Origin: Verrucomicrobiota bacterium
GTDB taxonomy: Bacteria; Verrucomicrobiota; Verrucomicrobiia; Limisphaerales; JAIPKD01
Length of the DNA stretch: 58,806 nt
Assembly: GCA_021733835.1 (NCBI GenBank)
Contig: JAIPKD010000009.1
Location: 1 to 58,806 of the forward strand
Direction: 5' to 3'
This document shows, in pieces, positions 45,934-58,639 of this stretch; the first letter of the stretch is position 1, and each line of letters opens with the position of its first letter. The position numbers were made by a program, and so were the translations under genes. Below the pieces are notes generated by a model. It was given only the letters and a program-made list of their open reading frames with translations. It ran no database searches and was not told where the DNA came from.

Positions 45934-46245
45934 CTACGGCTTTTTCTTGGTGAACTCGACTATCTGGTCGAGCAGCTCAACATACCTCCTAAACGCCTGC
46001 TCACCCTCGGACGTCAACGAATACATTGTCCTGGCTTTGCGTCCGCCCATCTCCTTTTCAACACAAATATATCCCGCCTCTTGAAGCGTCTTGATATGCA
46101 TACTGAGGTTGCCGTCGGTCATTTGGAGCAAATTCCGAATCTCAGTAAACGACAAGGTCTTGGACGCGGCCAATACCGACATAATTACAAGGCGCCCCTT
46201 TTCGTGAATAATTCGATCAAGTTGACGAAAAGGCTCGGGATTCAC
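45934..46245 (-). CDS. Winged-helix transcriptional regulator
   Basis: 103 residues, one winged helix-turn-helix of the MarR/ArsR-like type used in membrane-protein-linked regulators: RLVIMSVLAASKTLSFTEIRNLL, MTDGNLSMHIKTLQEAGYI, then a basic wing KEMGGRKARTMYSLT. It overlaps the preceding membrane gene by 4 bases, so the two act together. No ligand cysteines. Confidence 0.87.
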   Translation of the reverse strand: MNPEPFRQLDRIIHEKGRLVIMSVLAASKTLSFTEIRNLLQMTDGNLSMHIKTLQEAGYICVEKEMGGRKARTMYSLTSEGEQAFRRYVELLDQIVEFTKKKP

Positions 46246-46868
46246 ATTCCATTCCTCTCACGCTTTGAATAGAAAAGATAAACGGCGTACATCAATTGAA
46301 TCCCTCCAAATACCGCGCCCATGATCAAATGCGCGAACTTGAGAGGCGGAACAGTATCAAACCAGACAAGCGCGCACCCAAACGCCAGGCCTGCGATAAT
46401 GAAGATCATACCGAGCAGCTTTATCCCGCGCGGCATAAAAAAACCGGCTGCATGCATGGCGCAACCATATAGAACCATCCAGGCGGCCGGCAGCTTCCAC
46501 ACTTCCAGTGGATCGACGTAATCCGGCGCAAAGGTCAACAATCCCGCGCCTAATCCCGTAATCAGCGCCGGTGCCGCAGCGGAGGTCACACGCCGTGTGG
46601 GCGGCGACCAAAACGGCTCCTTATCCCGCAACGCCTCTCTTCGCGCCATCAGGTATGACAAAACAGCGGAGGCAATTCCAACTATCAACCAGTATCCGCA
46701 AAAGCGCCGGTTGCTATCCAGCTCGAGCGACCAACCGATAATTCCACCGGCAAGCCCCAGGATGCCGATCACGAACATGACGGGCGTCATTGCGTGTCTA
46801 TATATAGTTGAACGCTCCATGAGCGTCCTGATAACCTTTAAATTTTCAGCGGCCCAATTTGGATCCAT
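46242..46868 (-). CDS. Membrane protein of unknown function paired with the regulator
   Basis: 208 residues from ATG 46868 (MDPNWAAENL); the frame extends to 46937. Five to six hydrophobic helices. Such proteins commonly pair with a winged-helix gene in PVC and planctomycete genomes, but no function is known. It lies 77 bases after the hydrogenase operon and could be co-transcribed. Confidence 0.7.
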   Translation of the reverse strand: MDPNWAAENLKVIRTLMERSTIYRHAMTPVMFVIGILGLAGGIIGWSLELDSNRRFCGYWLIVGIASAVLSYLMARREALRDKEPFWSPPTRRVTSAAAPALITGLGAGLLTFAPDYVDPLEVWKLPAAWMVLYGCAMHAAGFFMPRGIKLLGMIFIIAGLAFGCALVWFDTVPPLKFAHLIMGAVFGGIQLMYAVYLFYSKRERNGM

Positions 46869-46945
46869 GACAAACCCTCTAATATTATACGTTATCCGAT
46901 CTTCGGTTATGGTTGGAAACCTTTTATGAGAACACAAAAACCTAC

Positions 46946-47482
46946 CTACACCACTTCGCTCTTCGTATATTTCACTGTACCGTCGACTTCTTCCAAATCC
47001 TCCGGGTGATACCGTGGTATGGGGAATTCATCTTGTTTGACGTGTATATCCACAACCTTCTTCTCAACCAACCCGAGCACAAGCGCAACACCAAAAACTA
47101 TCGCCTCCGGCCGCGGCGGGCAACCGGGTATGTAATAATCGACCGGAACTACCTTCTCAACAGGCCCGAGCACGCTGTACGTATCATGCCAAATACCGCC
47201 GCCGCCGGCGCATGAACCTATTGCAAAAACGAGCTTCGGCGACGGCATTGCATCATACGCCCGCCTCAAAGCAATCTCGGTGGCGCGCATGGCGGGCCCC
47301 TGACAAAGCATCACATCGGCGTGCCTCGGAGACCCCACCAGTTTAATACCAAACCGTTCCGCATCATACCACGGCGTCAACGCATTCAACACCTCGATAT
47401 CGCACCCGTTACATCCGCCGCTGTTGGCGTGGTACACCCACAGCGACCGCGGAAACATTTTTCGGCACAGTTCCTTAAGCAT
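46946..47482 (-). CDS. Group 4 [NiFe] hydrogenase small subunit (NuoB/HycG/EchC-like)
   Basis: 178 residues. Carries the proximal 4Fe-4S cluster: Cys24 and Cys27 (GGCNGCDIEV), Cys91 (IGSCAGGGG), Cys121 (IPGCPPRPEAI). The GGCNGCDIEVL form is the hydrogenase type, not the CCxxE type of complex I. Last gene of the hydrogenase operon, 5 bases after the ferredoxin subunit. Confidence 0.93.
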   Translation of the reverse strand: MLKELCRKMFPRSLWVYHANSGGCNGCDIEVLNALTPWYDAERFGIKLVGSPRHADVMLCQGPAMRATEIALRRAYDAMPSPKLVFAIGSCAGGGGIWHDTYSVLGPVEKVVPVDYYIPGCPPRPEAIVFGVALVLGLVEKKVVDIHVKQDEFPIPRYHPEDLEEVDGTVKYTKSEVV

Positions 47483-47487
47483 AACGC

Positions 47488-48012
47488 CTAGTCCAGTTCT
47501 ATATCTATATCATCCACCGTTTTTTCTTCGTTCAGGAACGGCTTCGAACGGAACACCCACCGTTCGTTCATCAAATCATCTATCCTATACCCCTTTAATT
47601 TCAACTCTTCCAGCGGCGTAGGCGATGTAAAACACCGTCCACACCTTTGGCATGTCCCCATAAACAACTCGAGCGTCTGCCCGACATCGCTGATCTCGTC
47701 CGTGGCGGTCTCGAACTCGTTACTCATGGTAATCGCATTCTCGGGACACAAGTCCGCGCAACGGCCGCAATACGTGCATCTGCGCCCCAGGTACTTCAGA
47801 ATCCGTACCTCCTGACAAACATCCTCAACCAGAATCTCCCGGGCGGGACAATTGTTTGCGCATCCGGCACAACCGACACAGCGTTCGACATCGAATATGG
47901 GCCTGCCACGGAACGCTTTAGGCACTGTCGCAGGCTCAAAAGGATACGGCAATGTCACGCGTCCCGCCCGCAGGCAGATCAGAACCTCTTTTATCTTTGC
48001 AGCTAAGGACAT
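47488..48012 (-). CDS. Group 4 hydrogenase ferredoxin-like subunit (NuoI/HycF-like)
   Basis: 174 residues, two 4Fe-4S motifs: Cys45-48-51-55 (CVGCAGCANNCP) and Cys79-82-85-89 (CTYCGRCADLCP). A third group Cys121-124-127 (CQRCGRCF) follows and could bind a further metal. Wires the small subunit to an electron donor. Confidence 0.92.
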   Translation of the reverse strand: MSLAAKIKEVLICLRAGRVTLPYPFEPATVPKAFRGRPIFDVERCVGCAGCANNCPAREILVEDVCQEVRILKYLGRRCTYCGRCADLCPENAITMSNEFETATDEISDVGQTLELFMGTCQRCGRCFTSPTPLEELKLKGYRIDDLMNERWVFRSKPFLNEEKTVDDIDIELD

Positions 48013-48021
48013 AATTGATCC

Positions 48022-48945
48022 TTAATAACCAAGCGCAGCTAAAACCAGCGCGCCGAAAGAAACCGCCACCATGACCAGGAAATACCGCACCGCCTGATCT
48101 ATCCTATATCGCGCATGAGAAGCGGCCAGAACCGTCACCAACACTACCAACACCGCCACCTTCAGCCAGAACAGAAGCCAGCCCAGAGGAAACATCAGCT
48201 CGTTACCCCACGGCACAAACAACGCCACGAACACGCCGCTGTACACTACAAGCCTGCACATCTGCGCGTACTTGAACAGCGCTAATTTCGGCCCCGAGTA
48301 CTCCATTAACGCCCCCTCCATTATCTCCGTCTCCGCCTCGGCGATATCAAACGGCACCCTCTTGACATACGCCTGGAAGGCGGCCAATACCATCAATAAC
48401 ATTATCAATCCGGCGTAACTAAACGTAACATCGCCGAAAACGACACCGCTGAAAACAGGCTCCAACCTCATCGATCCACCATTCACCGCCGCAACCAACA
48501 ATGCGATTATCAGCAACGGTTCGAGTGTAATCAGCATCATTACTTCCCTGCTTACGCCGAGCATCGAGTATGTGGTACCGGACGCTATACCCGCGAGGAC
48601 GCCGACCACCGCGCCCAACGCAAGCAAGTACACCAGCAGTATCACATCACCGCCGCTGAAAGGAATACCCACGCCCATCGGGATTAACCACGCAATGCAC
48701 AATACCGACGCAAGCCCAAGCGCGGCCGCCAGGCGCTGGAACACCGGCGATTCGCCGACCTCTATATCCTCTTTACCGAGAAGCTTCAAAATATCATAGT
48801 ACGCCTGCCGAATCGGCGGGCCCTGACGCGATTGGATTCTCGCCGTCAGTTTACGCACAATACCCTCGCACAACGGCGCCAATGCCAGCAATAATACTGT
48901 ATTCACCAATCCCCGAAAAACCGATGTCAGCAAATCATACCACAT
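48022..48945 (-). CDS. Group 4 hydrogenase membrane subunit (NuoH/HycD/EchB-like)
   Basis: 307 residues, about eight helices. Family segments RIQSRQGPPIRQAYYDILKLL near the N-terminus and VPFDIAEAETEIMEGALMEYSG, with acidic residues that connect the cluster arm to ion pumping. 15 bases after the large subunit. Confidence 0.94.
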   Translation of the reverse strand: MWYDLLTSVFRGLVNTVLLLALAPLCEGIVRKLTARIQSRQGPPIRQAYYDILKLLGKEDIEVGESPVFQRLAAALGLASVLCIAWLIPMGVGIPFSGGDVILLVYLLALGAVVGVLAGIASGTTYSMLGVSREVMMLITLEPLLIIALLVAAVNGGSMRLEPVFSGVVFGDVTFSYAGLIMLLMVLAAFQAYVKRVPFDIAEAETEIMEGALMEYSGPKLALFKYAQMCRLVVYSGVFVALFVPWGNELMFPLGWLLFWLKVAVLVVLVTVLAASHARYRIDQAVRYFLVMVAVSFGALVLAALGY

Positions 48946-48960
48946 AATCTCCGTCTTATT

Positions 48961-50643
48961 CTACTTATCCTTCCTTCTCACCAGCGACTCCAGCTCTCTA
49001 CCCGAATAAACTCGATGTGAACACGAACGGATATCTATCGTCTCGACCCTGTCCGTACACGAAAAACATGGATCAATGCTGCCCAGAGTAAGTGTCATAT
49101 CCGACAATGTCTGATCCTTGATCATATACGGAATGCCCTGCAGGTTCTGGTAAGTAGGCGCTCGAACACGCCAGCGCCTGGGTTTATTGTCTTCACCCGT
49201 AATAACAAAATGATGCGCCTCGCCGCGGGGCGCTTCGACCGATGAAATACCCGTTCGCGCAGACGGTAATTCATCAGTTATTTCCGCCGCGATCGGCCCG
49301 TCCGGCATCTTACTCAAGCACTGTCGGATAATACGAATGGACTCGAACACCTCAAGCGCGCGCACCAGTATCCTCGCCCATACGTCACAGCTCTCCCTGA
49401 CTATTACATCGAACTCGACTTCATCATACGCCGCATAAGGGTGATCCCTGCGCGCATCGATACAGATTCCGGAAGCCCGCGCCACAGGACCCAGCAGGCC
49501 CATGCGCTTGACCAAGCCGGGACTCGCCACACCCACATCACGCGTCCTGCGCTGAATATTCTTGTCCTTCGACACTGCGGCAACCACCCCTCGCCATTCG
49601 TCCTCGAGGTTATCGATCACGCGACGTAATCCCGTGCAAGCGTCTTCATCCAGATTCCATCTCACGCCGCCGATAACGCATAGTGCGTACGTCTTCCGGT
49701 TACCCGTGATTTTCTCGGCGATACGCATTACCGGTTCCCTAATCCTGAAGCTCTGCATGAAAAGGGTATCGAATCCGGCTATATGGCAGGCCAGGCCGAC
49801 CCACAATAAATGGCTATGCAACCGTTCCACCTCCAGCATTATGGTGCGAATATACTCGGCGCGTTTTGTCGGACTCAACGCCGCGGCCTCCTCTACCGCT
49901 TGAGCATATGCTACATTGTGAACGCATCCGCAGATGCCGCAAATACGCTCGGCCATCATCGGTATCTCGTTATATGTCAGCACCGACTCGGCGAGTTTCT
50001 CGATGCCACGATGCGCCATGAACCCGCGATACTCGCACCCGGCAATCCGTTCACCCTCGACGTACAGCCGGAAATGCGCCGGTTCGTCCAGAGTCGGATG
50101 GAATGGGCCGAAGGGCACGGCAACACATCCTTCCGGCAAACGCTCGAATTCATACTCACGCCCGCTATGGAAATTCTCGGGCACATGGTTCCACGGCACG
50201 TCCTTCCTGAGCGGATGCTCACCGTCGGGCCATCCATCCGGGAGAATCAGCCTTTTCGGAAACGGATGCCCCGCCGCGCGCACACCAACCAGATCATAGA
50301 ACTCGCGTTCGGACCAGTTTGCCGCTGGAATCCGATCCGATATGCTGTCCACTTCCGGCGCCGTTCCATCAACATACGTAATAACACTGCAAAACAGGTT
50401 TTTCCCGTCAAAAGCGAAATTATGCGCCACCTGGTACTTACCCGAATACGGCGTGTCATCAGCGCCGATGCCGACCGCATACCGCGCACTCATCGTATCG
50501 AACAGGAATACGCATACATTCCGGAGAACCGCCGGCTTGACGTATAAATACAACCGTTCATCGGAAGTCATATCCACCCGGCTGATTCCATCACCGAATC
50601 TTTCCTGTAACCTGTTCAATAAATGCAATATGAACATCCTCAA
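48961..50643 (-). CDS. Group 4 [NiFe] hydrogenase large subunit, NuoC-NuoD fusion (HycE-like)
   Basis: 560 residues: a NuoC-like N-terminal domain (about 1-160, EREFYDLVGV, HPLRKDVPW) fused to the catalytic NuoD-like part. Both nickel motifs are intact: Cys235 and Cys238 in RICGICGCVH, Cys526 and Cys529 in DPCFSCTDR. A 28-residue tail after Arg532 fits the piece removed by the maturation protease. So it is a true hydrogenase, not a complex I subunit. Confidence 0.95.
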   Translation of the reverse strand: MRMFILHLLNRLQERFGDGISRVDMTSDERLYLYVKPAVLRNVCVFLFDTMSARYAVGIGADDTPYSGKYQVAHNFAFDGKNLFCSVITYVDGTAPEVDSISDRIPAANWSEREFYDLVGVRAAGHPFPKRLILPDGWPDGEHPLRKDVPWNHVPENFHSGREYEFERLPEGCVAVPFGPFHPTLDEPAHFRLYVEGERIAGCEYRGFMAHRGIEKLAESVLTYNEIPMMAERICGICGCVHNVAYAQAVEEAAALSPTKRAEYIRTIMLEVERLHSHLLWVGLACHIAGFDTLFMQSFRIREPVMRIAEKITGNRKTYALCVIGGVRWNLDEDACTGLRRVIDNLEDEWRGVVAAVSKDKNIQRRTRDVGVASPGLVKRMGLLGPVARASGICIDARRDHPYAAYDEVEFDVIVRESCDVWARILVRALEVFESIRIIRQCLSKMPDGPIAAEITDELPSARTGISSVEAPRGEAHHFVITGEDNKPRRWRVRAPTYQNLQGIPYMIKDQTLSDMTLTLGSIDPCFSCTDRVETIDIRSCSHRVYSGRELESLVRRKDK

Positions 50644-52628
50644 TCCGTCTCCGTCTTCTCGGCAACCACGCCGGCCCGCCCCCTTGCCGCTGTGTCCGTC
50701 TCTGAGCCTAATGCGTACATATCATCAGACTCCCTATTAAGCCGTGTGTTACCTTTACATTTAAAAAGCGCCTTCAACTCGCCGTAGTAGCCGTGCGCAT
50801 TATATCTGAAATCTTCGGCGTCCCATGCATAACCGCACAACCAGGGGCTCGCCGGCCTTCGCTGGGCGCCGCCCGCACGAAGGAGCCAGCAGCAAAACAG
50901 CACCAGCGCACCCAGAACAACAAGCAACCCGATCGGCGCGAATACCGCCTTCGCCCCCAGCGCCTCGACGCCGCGCCATAATCCACCCTCCACCGGCGCG
51001 CCGTCTGTCAGACTCAACAGCATACCCTGCGCATCCCGTCCCAGCGCATAATGGAACCGACTGAATACCACCACCGGAAAAATCCCCAGAAGAACGCAGA
51101 CAAGCGCCGGCAACACCTGCGCAACTTTCATTTTCCAATCCAAAACCTTCCGGCTCCCCTCGGACACAGATTCAATGACATGCCTCCCCGCCCGCGACAT
51201 AAAGCTCGCGCCGAAAAATTTCACAAACGACGCCAGTGTAAGCGCGCTCGTAAATACCGCCACCGCCGCGCACAACGGTAGGTACGCAGACCATGGGGCC
51301 GCCTGGAACCCGGCGGAGTACAGCCCCCACTTGCTAGCAAATCCGTTGAACAACGGTATCCCCGATATGGAACACGCCCCCACCAGCGCCGTCACACCGC
51401 TCACGGGCATGTACCGCATTAATCCACCCATCTTATTCAAATCCTGAGTATCGGTTACATACAGCAACGAGCCGGCATTCAAAAACAATAGGCTCTTGAA
51501 CACACCGTGATTGATGGTATGGAATAACGCCGCGAAAAGCCCCAGCAACGCCACCTGCCGCGCGCCCGCCGCTGGATTGGACACAAGCGAAAGGCAAATA
51601 CCGAATCCCAGGAGGATGTAACCGATCTGCCCGATACTATGATACGCCAGCAAACGCTTCGTCTGCTCCTGGCCCAACGCCTTGGCGGTGCCCAGCAAAA
51701 GCGTCACCGTACCGATCAACGCAATAACCAAACCCCATGCGCCGGAATGGAAGTCACTCAATGATTCCGCGGGCACCAGCCACAGAAAATATCGCATCAC
51801 TCCATATACACCCGTCTTTATCATTACCCCTGATAAAAGGGCGCTGACAGGCGACGGCGCCGCCGGATGCGCATCCGGCAACCAAATCCCGCCCAAAGGC
51901 CACATACCCATCTTGATCCCGAAACCTATCAGAAATAACACGAACGCCGCCGTTATCACACCCGGGCTTTCCGAAAACAGCGCGGGCATGTTCGACTGCA
52001 ACGAGACGAAGTCGAATCTCATCAATTCCTCGCCCTGCTCAACCACTATGCCCGACGGCGCCAGCAAAAACGCGCCGACCATCGTCACAAAACAGGCCAG
52101 CTGCATCATCCAAAAAAACTTGGCCGCCGCCCGGCGGTTTGCGCGCTTCTCGTTCTCGTATCGCATCAACGCAAAACCAGCCACCGTCATCAATTGCCAG
52201 AATATGAAGAAGAAATACATCGTGTCCGTCGTGGACACTATCCCATAGAGGGCGGCAATAAAGAGGAGCAACCACGAATAATACCGTGCGGGACCGTGCC
52301 GCTCGTAATGTCCAAGGTATTCAATCGAATAAAACGCGCTGCAAATCGAGACAAACGCCGTTAACAAGAGAAACACCGCGCTCAATCCATCCACGTGCAG
52401 CCGCAAGGCGAACCCAAGCGCGCGTGATTTAAGAAAGGAAATCGGTTCTCCACCACCGTTCATTAGGACGTACACCGCCGCAACGAAGACCAGGCACGCC
52501 GAAATCGCCGCCGCCGCAAATGCCAGCCACCCGGACACACGCTTGCTGCGGTTGAACAACGGCATTATCACCGCTGTAACTATGCAGACCAGCATCGCCC
52601 ACATTACGGCATTTTCCGGATTCAACAT
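50640..52628 (-). CDS. Ion-translocating membrane subunit of the hydrogenase (NuoL/HycC/HyfB-like)
   Basis: 662 residues, about 14-16 helices, antiporter-like. Visible are YYSWLLLFIAALYGIVSTTDTMYFFFIFWQL (around 112-142), GMWPLGGIWLPDAHPAAPSPVSALLSGVMIKTG and HTINHGVFKSLLFL with the Lys/His of the proton path. The only such subunit in the operon, so a minimal ion pump like Hyc or Ech. ATGA overlap with the large subunit. Confidence 0.94.
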   Translation of the reverse strand: MLNPENAVMWAMLVCIVTAVIMPLFNRSKRVSGWLAFAAAAISACLVFVAAVYVLMNGGGEPISFLKSRALGFALRLHVDGLSAVFLLLTAFVSICSAFYSIEYLGHYERHGPARYYSWLLLFIAALYGIVSTTDTMYFFFIFWQLMTVAGFALMRYENEKRANRRAAAKFFWMMQLACFVTMVGAFLLAPSGIVVEQGEELMRFDFVSLQSNMPALFSESPGVITAAFVLFLIGFGIKMGMWPLGGIWLPDAHPAAPSPVSALLSGVMIKTGVYGVMRYFLWLVPAESLSDFHSGAWGLVIALIGTVTLLLGTAKALGQEQTKRLLAYHSIGQIGYILLGFGICLSLVSNPAAGARQVALLGLFAALFHTINHGVFKSLLFLNAGSLLYVTDTQDLNKMGGLMRYMPVSGVTALVGACSISGIPLFNGFASKWGLYSAGFQAAPWSAYLPLCAAVAVFTSALTLASFVKFFGASFMSRAGRHVIESVSEGSRKVLDWKMKVAQVLPALVCVLLGIFPVVVFSRFHYALGRDAQGMLLSLTDGAPVEGGLWRGVEALGAKAVFAPIGLLVVLGALVLFCCWLLRAGGAQRRPASPWLCGYAWDAEDFRYNAHGYYGELKALFKCKGNTRLNRESDDMYALGSETDTAARGRAGVVAEKTETD

Positions 52629-53119
52629 ATACTCGATTCCATTCTGTTGACGTTGTTTCCCATAAAAACACGCTTCAGCGTCTCCATCGCATCCCGTACC
52701 GGCTCACTGAGCTGCGACGCATGTCGCGTCCGCCCGCATTTTACGCCGAGCAGCCAGGTCGTAGTCACGCCATTGGACTCGATCCACATCGCCGCCGTAC
52801 CCAGCGAGATTCGATGCGTCGTGACCTGCGGGAACCTGCCGCGTATCTCTTCGCCCGGGAGCAGGACGATATCGCCGGGCGTACCTTCAAAATCGACTGA
52901 ATCAAGGAATACCAAATTGGACCGCGCCATATCACGTAGTTCGGTCAAATACAACTCTAGCCGCACCCCGGGTATTACCACATCTTCAAAGCCGCAATCA
53001 CGAAGGTACTGCGCCATGAGCACACCAAAGCCGTCATCGCCGGCCTCGACATTGCCGAGCCCGACAAAACACGTCCGGCCGCTCAGAATCCTTCGCCAAT
53101 CTCTTAACTCATCCCGCAT
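52622..53119 (-). CDS. [NiFe] hydrogenase maturation endopeptidase (HycI/HybD family)
   Basis: 165 residues. Removes the C-terminal tail of the large subunit after nickel insertion. GLGNVEAGDDGFGVLMAQYL gives the first metal ligand; LVFLDSVDFEG the Asp; TTHRISLGTA the His. Placed inside the operon, 7 bases overlapping the NuoL-like gene. The other maturation genes (hypA-F) are not in the window. Confidence 0.9.
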   Translation of the reverse strand: MRDELRDWRRILSGRTCFVGLGNVEAGDDGFGVLMAQYLRDCGFEDVVIPGVRLELYLTELRDMARSNLVFLDSVDFEGTPGDIVLLPGEEIRGRFPQVTTHRISLGTAAMWIESNGVTTTWLLGVKCGRTRHASQLSEPVRDAMETLKRVFMGNNVNRMESSIC

Positions 53120-53964
53120 TATATATCCTCACCCAGTTGCTTGATTTGCTTGTACGTGAACACCGGCCCGTCCACACACACATACGCAACGCCTATGCAG
53201 CAATGCCCGCACTTACCCACACCGCACTTCATATAACGCTCGAGCGTGGATATTATCTGCGAATCACTGAAACCGAGCGTCTTCAAATCCCTGATCACAA
53301 ACCGGAACATCACCGGCGGCCCGCACACGAACGCCACGGTGTTCTTCGAGGTCAGGTTGACATCGCGTTTCTTGAACAAGCTACCTACCACTCCCACATG
53401 CCCGCTCCATTCCGCATCCGCCTTATCCACCGTCAGATGGCATTCGACGTCCTTTGACTCTTCGTACTCACGCCAAAGCGGCATATACATCAACCCACGC
53501 GGCTCACGCGCGCCGTAAAACACCTTCACATCCCCGAACATCTCGCGATTCGCCAAGGCATACACTATACACGAGCGTAGCGGTATCATCCCTATGCCGC
53601 CGGCGACAAACACGAGATTCATCCCGGCATACGATTCCATCTTGAACCCGTTGCCGTAAGGACCGCGTACGCCGAATACGGCGCCCGGTCCCATCTCATG
53701 CATTGCCGATGTAGCGCTACCGACCTTCCTCACCGTAAAAAACAGCTCGCCCTCGGTCGGACTCGGCGGCAATGACGCTGGGAATTCGCCGTGACCGAAT
53801 ATCGATACCTGCGCGAACTGCCCCGGCTCGAACCTCTCGAGGAAACGCCGCTGCTCGCTTTCGTCGATGAACCGCCAGTAAAACGTCTTAACCTCGTCGA
53901 TCTCATCGACTACCCGCTCCAGCACCGCCGGTTTAGGTTCGTATATATTTTCCGTCACGCTCAT
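53119..53964 (-). CDS. FAD/NAD(P)-binding 2Fe-2S oxidoreductase (hydrogenase gamma/HydG, AsrB-like)
   Basis: 281 residues of the ferredoxin-NADP reductase superfamily. FAD part (FEPGQFAQVSIFG, VGSATSAMHEMGPG, GVRGPYGNGF), NAD(P) part (LVFVAGGIGMIPLRS, VAFVCGPPVMFRFV) and a C-terminal 2Fe-2S motif CGVGKCGHCCIGVAYVC. Such subunits form a pyridine-nucleotide diaphorase with HydB, encoded next to it. Confidence 0.93.
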   Translation of the reverse strand: MSVTENIYEPKPAVLERVVDEIDEVKTFYWRFIDESEQRRFLERFEPGQFAQVSIFGHGEFPASLPPSPTEGELFFTVRKVGSATSAMHEMGPGAVFGVRGPYGNGFKMESYAGMNLVFVAGGIGMIPLRSCIVYALANREMFGDVKVFYGAREPRGLMYMPLWREYEESKDVECHLTVDKADAEWSGHVGVVGSLFKKRDVNLTSKNTVAFVCGPPVMFRFVIRDLKTLGFSDSQIISTLERYMKCGVGKCGHCCIGVAYVCVDGPVFTYKQIKQLGEDI

Positions 53965-53968
53965 TATT

Positions 53969-55033
53969 CTACATTCCAGCTGATGAACGCCTCAATATCT
54001 CCACTACACTCGGCATACCGATGTTGCCGTGACATACATTTTCGCAACGCCCGCATCCCACACAGGCAACGGACAACTCACGCTGCACGAAGTAATGCGC
54101 CAGCTTCCGGAAGAATCGCCGGTTTCTCCTATCGTGAACCGCTTTTCTTGGATTGAATCCGCCGGCCATACGTGTGTAACCGCTCAACGCACAGGAATCC
54201 CAAATACGAACGCGTTCGACCTCACCCGCCGCGCTGCATCTATCGCTTACGGTAAAGCACGTGCAGGCCGGACACACGTATGTGCAGCCGCCGCACTCAA
54301 GGCACCTGTTCCCGATCTCTTCCCAAGTCTGCTCAGACACCCCGCCGCGGCTGACCAACCGCACGGCCGCCGAAAACCAGCTCACCTTCTTCTTAAAAGC
54401 GCGGCGCACCCCGGCAAGTATCTCACGCCGCTTCTCGACATGCGCTGCGTCCGCCTTTTCAAAAATCCGGTGCTCGAACAACTTCTCACCCTTCGCCGAG
54501 CCTGCAACGACCATAAACACCTCACCGAGGTCCATTAGCTGCAAGTCAAAATGCCCGCGCGCAGCCGGCCCGGTATCGGCGCACATGCAAAAACACATCT
54601 CGTCTATGTCGTTCTCGATATCGGTACACACCACATTGACCAAAAACAGGTTGTCGCGGCGGCGCTCGTAGTAAACGTCCTTAAAATCGCGATCCAGATA
54701 GAACCTGTCCAGATGCTGAATCCCAGCAACATCACATGAACGAATCCCGAACACCGCAAGCGGCGTCACATCCGTCTCCGGTTGTACACAGCACCCGCCA
54801 TCGTCGCATTTGATGTTCATCATCCTCTCGATATGCGGTAACACAAAACGCTTGGGCGGATAATACGGATTAGGTAAATGCACCCGAACATCATCCTTGT
54901 TCGCATCGGTAACCAAATCAAAGAACGTATCACGCCCCCTGCCGCGAAACGGCGCTGCCACGTCATAACCCTCGCGCCGGAGGATGTCTATGATCTCCAA
55001 AACCGACTCACGTTGTATTATCCGTGCTCGCAT
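53969..55033 (-). CDS. Iron-sulfur electron-transfer subunit (hydrogenase beta/HydB, AsrA-like)
   Basis: 354 residues. An N-terminal domain with FGIRSCDVAGIQHLDRFYLD and CVQPE, then two 4Fe-4S motifs: CLECGGCTYVCPACTCF and CVGCGRCENVCHGNI. It matches the beta subunit of sulfhydrogenases and anaerobic sulfite reductase A. It links the molybdopterin subunit, the diaphorase and the hydrogenase. It abuts the molybdopterin gene with no gap. Confidence 0.92.
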   Translation of the reverse strand: MRARIIQRESVLEIIDILRREGYDVAAPFRGRGRDTFFDLVTDANKDDVRVHLPNPYYPPKRFVLPHIERMMNIKCDDGGCCVQPETDVTPLAVFGIRSCDVAGIQHLDRFYLDRDFKDVYYERRRDNLFLVNVVCTDIENDIDEMCFCMCADTGPAARGHFDLQLMDLGEVFMVVAGSAKGEKLFEHRIFEKADAAHVEKRREILAGVRRAFKKKVSWFSAAVRLVSRGGVSEQTWEEIGNRCLECGGCTYVCPACTCFTVSDRCSAAGEVERVRIWDSCALSGYTRMAGGFNPRKAVHDRRNRRFFRKLAHYFVQRELSVACVGCGRCENVCHGNIGMPSVVEILRRSSAGM

Positions 55034-57070
55034 TTATTGTAATTTCTCGATTCGAACCAATACCGGATGAAAGCTCTCGCGGTCATCGGAGAACGATTCG
55101 CCCAGAATCGACTTGCCGACTTCGCTGACGAAATACGGCAGGAAAACCGATCCCTGCTTGATCTCGCCGGTTACACGCGCCGTCGTCTGCGCTTTTCCGT
55201 ATGGGGTGCACAACATTACTTTTGCGCCGTCCTTGATACCCACCACCTTCGCATCGGCCGTACTCATCTCGACGAAGCCCTTCGGGTAGTCGAGCAGTAG
55301 AATTCGGTACTCACGCTTTAACGTCTCACTGTGGCGAACAAGGACGTTCTGATTCCAGTAATAAAGAGAATGCCCGAAAATCAGGAGCAGCGGAAACTCG
55401 GGATTCACTTCAATCCGCCGCGCCTTTTCAAGGGCGGTGAAAAACTTAAACCGCCGTTCCGCCGTCGCATCCGAAAACAGTGTCGGTGTTCCCAACGGCT
55501 TTTCGCGTGTGCACGGCCATTGGCGCCCGTAATCACCCTCCAGGTTCCGGTAGTCTATACCGCTATAAGCCGTAACGTTTTCGGCTACTTCGTTCATCAC
55601 GTCCTCAGCGGATGCATAATCCCAGGATTCGCCCATCTTCTGCGCAACCAATGTAATCTGCCGCCACGAGGGAACCTGGCCGTGCGGCGGCTCTTTCACC
55701 TTGTTCGCAAGCTGAACACGCCTATCGGTGCTCGTAAAGGTAACCGTCTCCTCCCCAAACGCGACAAGCGGCAAGACTACATCGGCAAATCGCGCCGAAC
55801 CCGTCGGAAATAAATGTTGCAAAACGACAAATTCAAACTCGTCAAGCGTCCTCTCCGCATCGTAAAAGTACGAAGTCGTTACCGGATCATACCGGCTCAA
55901 CCATAACGCGCGCACCTTGCCGCCGCCCCTGTCCCGCAACACCCGATGCGCGTCCAGGCCGGTCGACCCCGGCGGGCGCGTCACTTCACCTCCGGCTCGC
56001 GCGGCATCACGACCGCTCCCGGAAACATGCCTGTACCCAGGAAGGTAATCGGGCAGCATCCCCATGTCGCAGACTCCCTGTAAATTGTTCTGCTCGCACA
56101 ATGCAAACAACCCGGCGCCTTCCCTCCCCAGGTTCCCTCGCAACAACGCCAGGTTCACAAACGAGCGTATGGTATTTCGCCCCCTGTTCTCAACGCCGGT
56201 CGAATACATGAGAACCGCCTTCGCAGCGCGACCGTACGCCAGCGCAGCGCGTTCGATCAATTCAACCGGTACACCACACTCCAACGACGCGGCGACCAGG
56301 TCGTATTGCCGGACTTCGTGCACAAACTCCTCGTAATTCTCGCAATGCGCCTTGATAAAACCGAGTTCAACCCGACCGCGATCGGTCAACACCTTCGCCA
56401 TGGCATCATAAAGCACACCCTCAGTCCCCGGCTTGATCTGAAGAAAGTAATCAGCATGCTCGGCTATACAATGCCGTCTCGAGTCAACGACTATCAACCC
56501 CGCACCGCCGAGCTTCGCGCGCATCACACGCCCGCCGATGGTGGGCAATTGCCTCGCCAAATCCACGCCGTCGACGAGGATCAATTCGCTCTTCTCGATA
56601 TCACCTATCGAACATGTGGTAGCCGGTACGCCGATCATCTCCAGTAATACGCGCAGGCTGTTGTTACAATATACGCCGGCGCCATGGTCTACGTTGTTGG
56701 TGCCGATCACCTCCCTCGCGAATTTCTGAAGCAAATAACTCTCCTCATTCGAGCATCTGGGTGAATTCAAAAACGCCAACGCATCCGGGCCGTGGACGTC
56801 TCGTATCTTCGTCAGCTTTTCTGCGATAAAACCCAATGCCTCCTCCCACTCGACCTCCTCGAGCTTGCCGTTTTTTCTGATCAACGGCCGCTTCAGCCTC
56901 TCAGGGGACCTGGCGACCTCGTGAATATGCCAGCCGCGTACGCAGATGCGGCCGAGGTTGGAAGGATGCGACATACTCGGATACACCCCTTTGACACTCT
57001 TCCCGTCGGTCTCGAGGTACATTCCACACCCCACACCGCAAAACGTACATGTTGTCAGTTTCTGCGCCAT
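55034..57070 (-). CDS. Molybdopterin oxidoreductase, formate-dehydrogenase-like with altered active site
   Basis: 678 residues, cytoplasmic, no signal. N-terminal 4Fe-4S (Cys8, 11, 15, 43), bis-MGD domains, and the C-terminal cap. The overall pattern is FdhF-like (RCSNEESYLLQKFAREVIGTNNVDH, CEQNNLQGVCDMGMLPDYLPGY). In formate dehydrogenases NNVDH is followed by CARxC(U)H; here it is GAGVYCNNS (Cys135 probable metal ligand, no His). The Arg before GQNN is replaced: ALCEQNN (Cys325-Glu326). Formate is therefore doubtful as substrate. First gene of the operon; no in-frame UGA. Confidence 0.9.
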   Translation of the reverse strand: MAQKLTTCTFCGVGCGMYLETDGKSVKGVYPSMSHPSNLGRICVRGWHIHEVARSPERLKRPLIRKNGKLEEVEWEEALGFIAEKLTKIRDVHGPDALAFLNSPRCSNEESYLLQKFAREVIGTNNVDHGAGVYCNNSLRVLLEMIGVPATTCSIGDIEKSELILVDGVDLARQLPTIGGRVMRAKLGGAGLIVVDSRRHCIAEHADYFLQIKPGTEGVLYDAMAKVLTDRGRVELGFIKAHCENYEEFVHEVRQYDLVAASLECGVPVELIERAALAYGRAAKAVLMYSTGVENRGRNTIRSFVNLALLRGNLGREGAGLFALCEQNNLQGVCDMGMLPDYLPGYRHVSGSGRDAARAGGEVTRPPGSTGLDAHRVLRDRGGGKVRALWLSRYDPVTTSYFYDAERTLDEFEFVVLQHLFPTGSARFADVVLPLVAFGEETVTFTSTDRRVQLANKVKEPPHGQVPSWRQITLVAQKMGESWDYASAEDVMNEVAENVTAYSGIDYRNLEGDYGRQWPCTREKPLGTPTLFSDATAERRFKFFTALEKARRIEVNPEFPLLLIFGHSLYYWNQNVLVRHSETLKREYRILLLDYPKGFVEMSTADAKVVGIKDGAKVMLCTPYGKAQTTARVTGEIKQGSVFLPYFVSEVGKSILGESFSDDRESFHPVLVRIEKLQ

Positions 57071-57357: not shown

Positions 57358-57415
57358 TTTGCCCCGTCAGGGGCAAAATATTTATAGCCACACCCGCCAC
57401 ACAAATCCATCAGCC
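57358..57415. repeat. GCCCC/GGGGC hairpin repeat, copy 1
   Basis: TTTGCCCC-GTCA-GGGGCAAA hairpin (57358-57377) followed by TATTTATAGCCACACCCG, the same order as at 58553-58615. Confidence 0.75.
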
Positions 57416-58341: not shown

Positions 58342-58639
58342 CACACGGATTTATGATCAATCATAATCCCTATTCCTCTTCTCAAATGCGTCTGCAGAAA
58401 GAGGCTGCCACATTAAGACCTCGTAGAGTTAACTTTGTGTATGCCTGACCCCTGGAAAAATCCCGCATGTCAAGCGACCAACGGGAGCGGGCGGTTAATT
58501 AACATTGCCTTCTCTGCGTTTTTCGCGTACTTGGCGAGAGTTTGTTCATGTCTTGCCCCGTCAGGGGCAAATTATTTATAGCCACACCCGTCAAATAAAT
58601 CCATTAAGTCCCTTTAGGGACGTGATATTTCTGTATTCT
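58342..58639. other. Intergenic region with repeats
   Basis: 298 bases. Contains a CGC/GAG-rich stretch (58511-58541) resembling the reverse strand of 12034-12060, and hairpin repeat copy 2 (58553-58621). No gene seen. Confidence 0.55.
58553..58621. repeat. GCCCC/GGGGC hairpin repeat, copy 2, with second hairpin
   Basis: TTGCCCC-GTCA-GGGGCAA (58553-58570), then TATTTATAGCCACACCCG, then a second hairpin GTCCC-TTTA-GGGAC (58608-58621). The second hairpin is absent from copy 1. Confidence 0.75.

Follow-up and report, generated by a model that had tools for sequence, protein, structure and literature searches.

The stretch of DNA analysed here (the window) comprises the 58,806 nucleotides of contig JAIPKD010000009.1 from a Verrucomicrobiota bacterium (NCBI GenBank assembly GCA_021733835.1), and the system in question is an operon that joins a group 4 [NiFe] hydrogenase, a sulfhydrogenase-type HydB/HydG pair and a protein with the fold of a formate dehydrogenase (FDH). 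In the list of open reading frames (ORFs) of the window, nine ORFs span positions 46946-57070, all on the minus strand, and the gaps between them in the direction of transcription are 0, 4, -1, -7, -4, 15, 9 and 5 bases. Based on Pfam and NCBIfam profiles, the genes are assigned, in transcript order, to FDH-alpha, ShyB/HydB/AsrA, ShyC/HydG/AsrB, the HycI protease, a HyfB-type antiporter, a NuoCD-type large subunit, NuoH, HycF/HyfH and NuoB (Table 1). The tight packing on one strand, the gene families and the dedicated maturation protease, all described in an earlier note made from the letters of the sequence, are confirmed by these results. A four-cluster ferredoxin subunit of the HycB/HyfA type was not found among the nine genes, and HydB occupies that place.

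Table 1. Genes of the operon and the sequence motifs discussed in the text, with their positions in the window.
Feature	Position	Strand	Basis or remark
FDH-like subunit, 678 amino acids	55034..57070	-	TIGR01591; AlphaFold2 (AF2) model; catalytic residues lost
Retained [4Fe-4S] motif C8-x2-C11-x3-C15-x27-C43	56942..57049	-	alignment of the FDH-like subunit
Lost selenocysteine (Sec)/Cys-His pair, Tyr134-Cys135	56666..56671	-	Y/H/G/W and C/S/G/R/other in the family
Former active-site Arg, equivalent to Arg333 of E. coli FdhF; now Cys325	56096..56098	-	T, A, N, P, V in relatives
HydB/AsrA-type Fe-S subunit (sulfhydrogenase beta)	53969..55033	-	PDB match 9nez_B; fold match
HydB [4Fe-4S] cysteine motifs, C244 to C334	54032..54304	-	alignment
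HydG/AsrB-type flavin adenine dinucleotide (FAD), NAD(P)H, [2Fe-2S] subunit (sulfhydrogenase gamma)	53119..53964	-	9nez_C; Pfam NAD_binding_1 and DHODB_Fe-S_bind
HydG [2Fe-2S] ligands C247, C252, C255, C263	53176..53226	-	invariant in window-type members; conserved family-wide
HycI-type hydrogenase maturation protease	52622..53119	-	TIGR00072, 64.3 bits, above cut-off
HyfB/HycC-type antiporter-like membrane subunit (predicted ion pump)	50640..52628	-	Pfam/NCBIfam; pump lysines
[NiFe] hydrogenase large subunit, NuoC-NuoD fusion, HycE type	48961..50643	-	7z0s_E match; tree
Ni-Fe ligand motif C235-x2-C238	49930..49941	-	alignment, tree set
Ni-Fe ligand motif C526-x2-C529, followed by C-terminal extension for protease	49057..49068	-	alignment
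NuoH/HycD-type membrane anchor	48022..48945	-	family match; E-channel glutamates retained
HycF/HyfH-type 2x[4Fe-4S] subunit with C121-x2-C124-x2-C127 tail	47488..48012	-	family match and alignment
NuoB/HycG-type small subunit, one [4Fe-4S]	46946..47482	-	family match and alignment

The gene order is conserved well beyond the window. When the large subunit was used as the query against 384 genomes of the host's class, it was found in 20 other genomes with 62-71% identity, and 17 of these 20 loci contain the full order of FdhF-like, HydB, HydG, HycI, HyfB (one or two copies), HycE, HycD, HycF and HycG; of the three others, one is cut by the end of its contig, one is without HyfB, and one is without adjoining HycF and HycG. 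Furthermore, about 18 carriers were found among 396 genomes of Acidobacteriota, with large-subunit identities of 47-65%. The same core order is present in 14 complete Acidobacteriota loci as well as in one more acidobacterial locus (L010), hence in at least 15, and the HycI protease was detected in five of the 14 complete ones; in 'Candidatus Saccharicenans' the operon is also present, and the contig stops inside HycE. As in the window, neighbouring genes in the relatives overlap or almost touch each other. Because the order recurs across these loci with the genes nearly touching, the parts of the operon evolve as a unit. Chance adjacency, or a cluster found only here as the earlier note had allowed for, is ruled out by the recurrence of the order in dozens of genomes of two phyla at 47-71% large-subunit identity. 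In a variant branch in Acidobacteriota (L182, L183 and L184), an additional antiporter-like gene lies between HycF and HycG, and the FDH-like subunit of L182 has an altered first cluster motif (CPFCPCGCG). A search with HydB found no relatives of this subunit in viral contigs.

The first gene product of the transcript has its best family match in TIGR01591 (524 bits, under the family cut-off of 666), and scores 116.6 bits against the NuoG family TIGR01973, whose cut-off is 470. Its AF2 model, with a mean predicted local distance difference test (pLDDT) score of 85.5 and a predicted template modelling (pTM) score of 0.89, resembles E. coli FdhF with a template modelling (TM) score of 0.88-0.89. 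Active FDHs use a Sec/Cys-His pair and an Arg for catalysis; in Fdh3 of T. onnurineus these are Cys133-His134-Arg324, and enzymes ranging from E. coli to D. gigas share them (PMC8965080). In our alignments, by contrast, all 36 examined members of the family lack the catalytic Sec/Cys-His pair as well as the Arg, the residues that would mark the subunit as part of a formate hydrogenlyase. The Sec/Cys position is occupied by Tyr in 20 of the 21 window-type members and by Gly, Trp, Thr or Ala in the Acidobacteriota type, and the Arg position by Thr, Ala, Asn, Cys, Pro or Val across the family. About two dozen canonical FDHs from other genomes, which share 33-36% identity with the family in a joint alignment, retain C/U-H and R almost always; the one departure in this set (L109) is poorly aligned at the two positions and may belong to a different class of molybdoenzymes. 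Among 110 columns that are invariant in FDHs, 66 are kept in the window type and 40 in the Acidobacteriota type. Two other readings of the site were rejected: Sec read-through, because there is no TGA at the site and Tyr134 is encoded; and Cys135 as the residue at the Sec position, as suggested by a gap in the phmmer alignment with B. subtilis YjgC, because this Cys varies (C/S/G/R/other) in the relatives. At the same time, the cluster cysteines C8, C11 and C15 are invariant in the 36 members and C43 is nearly so, the gene is of full length without stops, 161 of its 678 residues are invariant in 21 members, and it is present in every locus whose contig reaches its position. To judge from the alignments, the subunit probably no longer oxidises formate.

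The molybdenum-cofactor pathway was examined in 35 carrier genomes, 19 of Verrucomicrobiota including the host (a bin of 2.84 Mb, 92% complete) and 16 of Acidobacteriota. Family searches found MoaC, MoeA and the C-terminal domain of MoaA missing together from exactly the same 17 carriers, namely 13 of the 19 Verrucomicrobiota, the host among them, and four of the 16 Acidobacteriota; as a control, the same searches recovered all three genes in 11 of 14 control genomes. The host therefore seems unable to make a Mo/W-bis(pyranopterin guanine dinucleotide) cofactor, and a family search of its genome found no other FDH-like Mo enzyme, the only further match being NuoG-like. The site is altered in the same way whether or not a carrier has the pathway. 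Most simply, the subunit would do without the cofactor in all carriers, and it probably contains neither Mo nor W.

The HydB and HydG subunits, on the other hand, seem to form an intact diaphorase. The best PDB match of HydB is the beta subunit of P. furiosus soluble hydrogenase I (SHI) (9nez_B, E 1e-38), to which its predicted fold is similar with a TM score of 0.78, the confidence of the model being modest (mean pLDDT 75), and 16 of its cysteines are invariant in 21 window-type members. HydG matches best the gamma subunit of the same enzyme (9nez_C, E 2.5e-53), and its nucleotide-binding and [2Fe-2S] motifs are conserved. The pair thus carries the Fe-S, FAD and NAD(P) motifs of the sulfhydrogenase/AsrAB diaphorases, as had been proposed from the letters. 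A flavoprotein of the HydG kind carries one FAD, and is non-bifurcating in sulfhydrogenase. No bifurcating flavoprotein, be it of the HydBC/NuoF type with flavin mononucleotide, the NfnB/GltD type or the Etf type, was found among the nine genes, in which only HydG has a flavin-type domain; flavin-based bifurcation was therefore dropped.

The hydrogenase and its membrane arm likewise retain their functional residues. The best solved relative of the large subunit is E. coli HycE (7z0s_E, 425 bits, compared with 229 for MbhL), and both CxxC pairs for Ni-Fe are kept in the window and in every family member, whereas the NuoD paralogues of the host itself are without them. These two pairs in a NuoD-type subunit, together with NuoB-, NuoI-, NuoH- and NuoL-type partners, characterize a group 4 [NiFe] hydrogenase. 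In a tree, the large subunits of the family form a separate, supported clade (ultrafast bootstrap (UFBoot)/Shimodaira-Hasegawa-like approximate likelihood ratio test (SH-aLRT) 99/88) beside the clade of E. coli HycE and Azospirillum/Rhodovastum HyfG, hence outside group 4a, in a reconstruction with few reference groups and long branches whose deeper joins should not be over-read. The Fe-S cysteines of HycF and HycG are conserved family-wide, as are those of HydB and HydG, and HycF also retains a Cys-rich tail and Arg122, through which E. coli HycF contacts FdhF. HycD retains the E-channel residues (E. coli Glu130, Glu138, Glu199, Glu201 and Glu203; positions taken from PMC9474812). In HyfB, the pump lysines K239, K271, K378 and K433 are invariant in 43 family copies; the subunit has a lysine in transmembrane helix (TMH) 7, where E. 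coli HycC has Leu208, and one in TMH12, where HycC has Glu391, and the N-side Ser and Lys are present, which are replaced by Ala230 and Gln285 in HycC. HypD, a hydrogenase maturation protein, was found in 33 of the 35 carrier genomes; therefore, the [NiFe] centre can be matured. The intact Ni and Fe-S ligands and the NuoL-like, pump-type subunit noticed earlier have thus proved to be features of the whole family, from which ion coupling may be expected. Several relatives (L121, L122, L126, L131 and L132) have two HyfB genes in tandem, both copies with all the pump lysines, and this duplication could alter the ion stoichiometry. The host genome also contains two further NuoB/NuoC/NuoD-type sets without Ni ligands (contigs C77 and C99; L002, L003 and L189), and contig C99 has a NuoG-like match as well, so that complex I-type enzymes coexist with the hydrogenase.

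An ion-coupled NAD(P)H/H2 oxidoreductase of the complex I type, in which a cofactor-free relic of FDH has a NuoG-like role, is in our view the fairly probable product of the operon. Because a conserved operon joins the hydrogenase, HydB/HydG and the FDH-like protein, these parts most likely form one complex. In this complex, electrons from NAD(P)H would enter the FAD of HydG, move to its [2Fe-2S] cluster, and pass through the [4Fe-4S] clusters of HydB to HycF, and then through HycG to the [NiFe] site of HycE, and this flow would be coupled to the movement of ions by HycD and HyfB. HydB would sit where HycF needs electron input, a HycB-type subunit being absent. The FDH relic would lie between HydB and HycF, as a scaffold or as a wire via its single [4Fe-4S] cluster, a role that in complex I belongs to NuoG, which is of the same fold family; it is probably near these two subunits because FdhF of E. 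coli is in contact with both HycB and HycF, and Arg122 is conserved. NADPH is near -370 mV and H2 near -300 mV at ~10 Pa, which corresponds to about one proton's worth of energy per H2. At low H2, NADPH could thus drive H2 release with ion pumping, and reverse flow would also be possible; alternatively, NADH-driven H2 release might be paid for by the ion gradient, and high H2 could reverse the flow. The earlier note had envisaged one complex linking H2, NAD(P)H, an ion gradient and a molybdopterin substrate, possibly with bifurcation. The hydrogenase, the NAD(P)H module and an FDH-like protein are indeed found in one conserved operon; however, of the molybdopterin enzyme only the fold has survived scrutiny, and the molybdopterin substrate has to be given up, as Sec/Cys, His and Arg are lost in every member and the cofactor pathway is missing in half of the carriers including the host. 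Bifurcation is likewise unsupported, the sole flavoprotein being of a non-bifurcating kind. The enzyme is probably neither a formate hydrogenlyase nor bifurcating.

Several observations weigh against this reading. All three cofactor genes are present in the same 18 of the 35 carriers, and in principle the cofactor could still be bound at a site that offers no protein ligand, as in arsenite oxidase. The carriers are mostly metagenome bins, in which gaps in the assembly can make a gene seem absent; such gaps are an unlikely explanation here because the three genes are missing in concert. In 39 of the 43 HyfB copies, the Glu of TMH5 is replaced by Gln, and pumping may therefore differ from that in complex I. 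Moreover, HydB and HydG could act on their own: homologues of the pair serve in several enzymes (SHI, SHII and AsrAB), and here they might constitute, together with the FDH relic, a soluble NAD(P)H oxidoreductase with, for example, ferredoxin or polysulfide as its partner, merely co-expressed with a ferredoxin-using hydrogenase of the formate hydrogenlyase type. We regard this separation as unlikely, since the HycB-type ferredoxin that would feed HycF is missing with HydB in its place, two phyla share the gene order, and Arg122 of HycF is kept.

The remaining explanations differ in what they make of the FDH-like subunit. It might be a Mo/W enzyme acting on a different substrate in an altered pocket and coupled to H2 and NAD(P)H, as several loop motifs adjoining the active site are still similar (NNLQG.CDMG, GEE.VTFTS and RQWPC) and Mo enzymes without a protein ligand are known; but the pocket residues vary even among close relatives (C/S/G/R at one position, T/N/A/C at another), and the pocket is the same whether or not the genome has the cofactor pathway, which the host has not, all of which makes such an enzyme rather improbable. 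If the gene were instead decaying and without a role, the lower conservation of its product compared with HydB or HycE would be explained; yet a full-length frame with so many invariant residues, cluster cysteines that are nearly always kept, and a gene found in every locus covering its place make decay very unlikely. There is hardly any room for a formate-linked complex, in which the subunit would oxidise formate and pass electrons to H2 and, via HydBG, to NAD(P)H, perhaps with bifurcation: the best match to TIGR01591, the FdhF fold and a large subunit adjoining HycE speak for it, whereas the residues that canonical FDHs keep are lost in every member, 17 of the 35 carriers have no cofactor pathway, and the single flavoprotein is of the non-bifurcating type. 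Having weighed these alternatives, we retain the NAD(P)H/H2 oxidoreductase with an FDH relic, and we lean slightly towards the further view that, with this relic, a NuoG-like subunit has arisen independently for a second time, and that in Verrucomicrobiota and Acidobacteriota a complex of the formate hydrogenlyase type thereby became an NAD(P)H-linked, ion-translocating [NiFe] hydrogenase. In such an evolution, the ferredoxin subunit would have been swapped for the NAD(P)H module, and FDH would have lost catalysis and molybdenum and been kept as a structural or wiring part.

Next to the operon, on the same strand and 8 bases downstream of HycG, lies a gene for a multi-spanning membrane protein without a Pfam match (46242-46937), and a gene for an ArsR-like regulator (45934-46245) is also located 3' of HycG on that strand. 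They were considered as operon members and left out as they are unmatched in the other loci; they are probably local neighbours. Upstream of the operon, a 52-base direct repeat (57359-57410 and 58553-58604, 92% identical, 1194 bases apart) contains a GCCCC/GGGGC hairpin. Elsewhere in the window, positions 517-2070 encode a protein that combines an FGE-sulfatase domain with cytochrome c domains. A circular record of 32.8 kb with a hyp-hyc-asc-hydN region (NZ_CP146656.1, E. coli MS 145-7 'plasmid unnamed3') represents either a piece excised from the chromosome or an artefact of assembly.

If our reading is true, nature would have repeated in this operon the way in which complex I gained its NADH arm, with FDH frozen into a scaffold that joins a nicotinamide module to a membrane hydrogenase, and experiments on it could address directly why such a dead subunit persists. 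The enzyme would, in addition, link NAD(P)H and H2 with energy coupling and have no need of ferredoxin or of bifurcation. Operons of this sort in Verrucomicrobiota and Acidobacteriota would be misassigned when they are read as formate hydrogenlyase, and for many metagenome bins the use of formate would be inferred wrongly. A peatland acidobacterial bin, for instance, has been described with a 'fdhF, hyf operon' formate hydrogenlyase (PMC6018796), which is only a candidate lead to the same family. The association of genes is not unheard of, a similar set having been noted in Saganbacteria: in the sections of PMC6349859 (Matheus Carnevali 2019) that deal with RX5A, the region of an 'enigmatic' group 4 hydrogenase contains antiporter-like genes, cooF, asrA, asrB and a molybdopterin oxidoreductase, the last being an FDH by HMMs and not by phylogeny, and an oxidoreductase module is proposed. 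By that description, the gene set is similar, with an additional cooF and with antiporters called Mrp-like; the passages on this cluster do not mention catalytic residues or the cofactor pathway. Novelty, which the earlier note had made dependent on no identical cluster having been characterised, thus holds in part: a similar set was described in 2019, while a search that had subscription papers outside its reach found no report of the dead active site, the missing pathway or the conservation of the cluster in Verrucomicrobiota and Acidobacteriota.

Among well-studied systems, E. coli formate hydrogenlyase-1 (HycBCDEFG-FdhF, group 4a, 7z0s/7z0t, PMC9474812) shares the hydrogenase and membrane core and the FdhF fold; in comparison, the operon is without HycB, has HydB and HydG, encodes an FdhF-like subunit with a dead site, and its large subunit forms a clade of its own. 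In SHI of P. furiosus (sulfhydrogenase, group 3b), the beta and gamma subunits, which have the same fold and cofactor motifs as HydB and HydG, carry electrons from NADPH to the [NiFe] site (9nez/9nf0); however, its hydrogenase is the soluble HydAD, whereas that of the operon is a membrane-bound, complex I-like group 4 enzyme. In Thermococcus, FDH-type subunits stand beside a group 4 hydrogenase and an antiporter (Fdh2-Mfh2-Mnh2) or beside an NAD(P)-binding subunit (the NADP-dependent Fdh3), but these FDHs are active and keep the Cys-His-Arg residues that the subunit of the operon lacks (PMC8965080). StnC has a NuoG-like domain of the same fold family without formate chemistry (PMC10482914). 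Its partners differ from those found here, and neither StnC nor QrcB or ActB is part of a [NiFe] hydrogenase. QrcB and ActB, which have other partners too, are of the same fold family and function within different redox complexes, where they perform no formate chemistry. There is also a likeness to complex I, in which an NAD(P)H module is likewise mounted on NuoB/CD/I/H/L-type subunits, and whose NuoG (Nqo3) has the FDH fold, has lost formate chemistry and has kept the N-terminal [4Fe-4S] cluster. The likeness is one of function only, as the subunit of the operon is FDH-like (524 bits) and not NuoG (117 bits), NuoE and NuoF are absent, and the product would be H2 rather than quinol.

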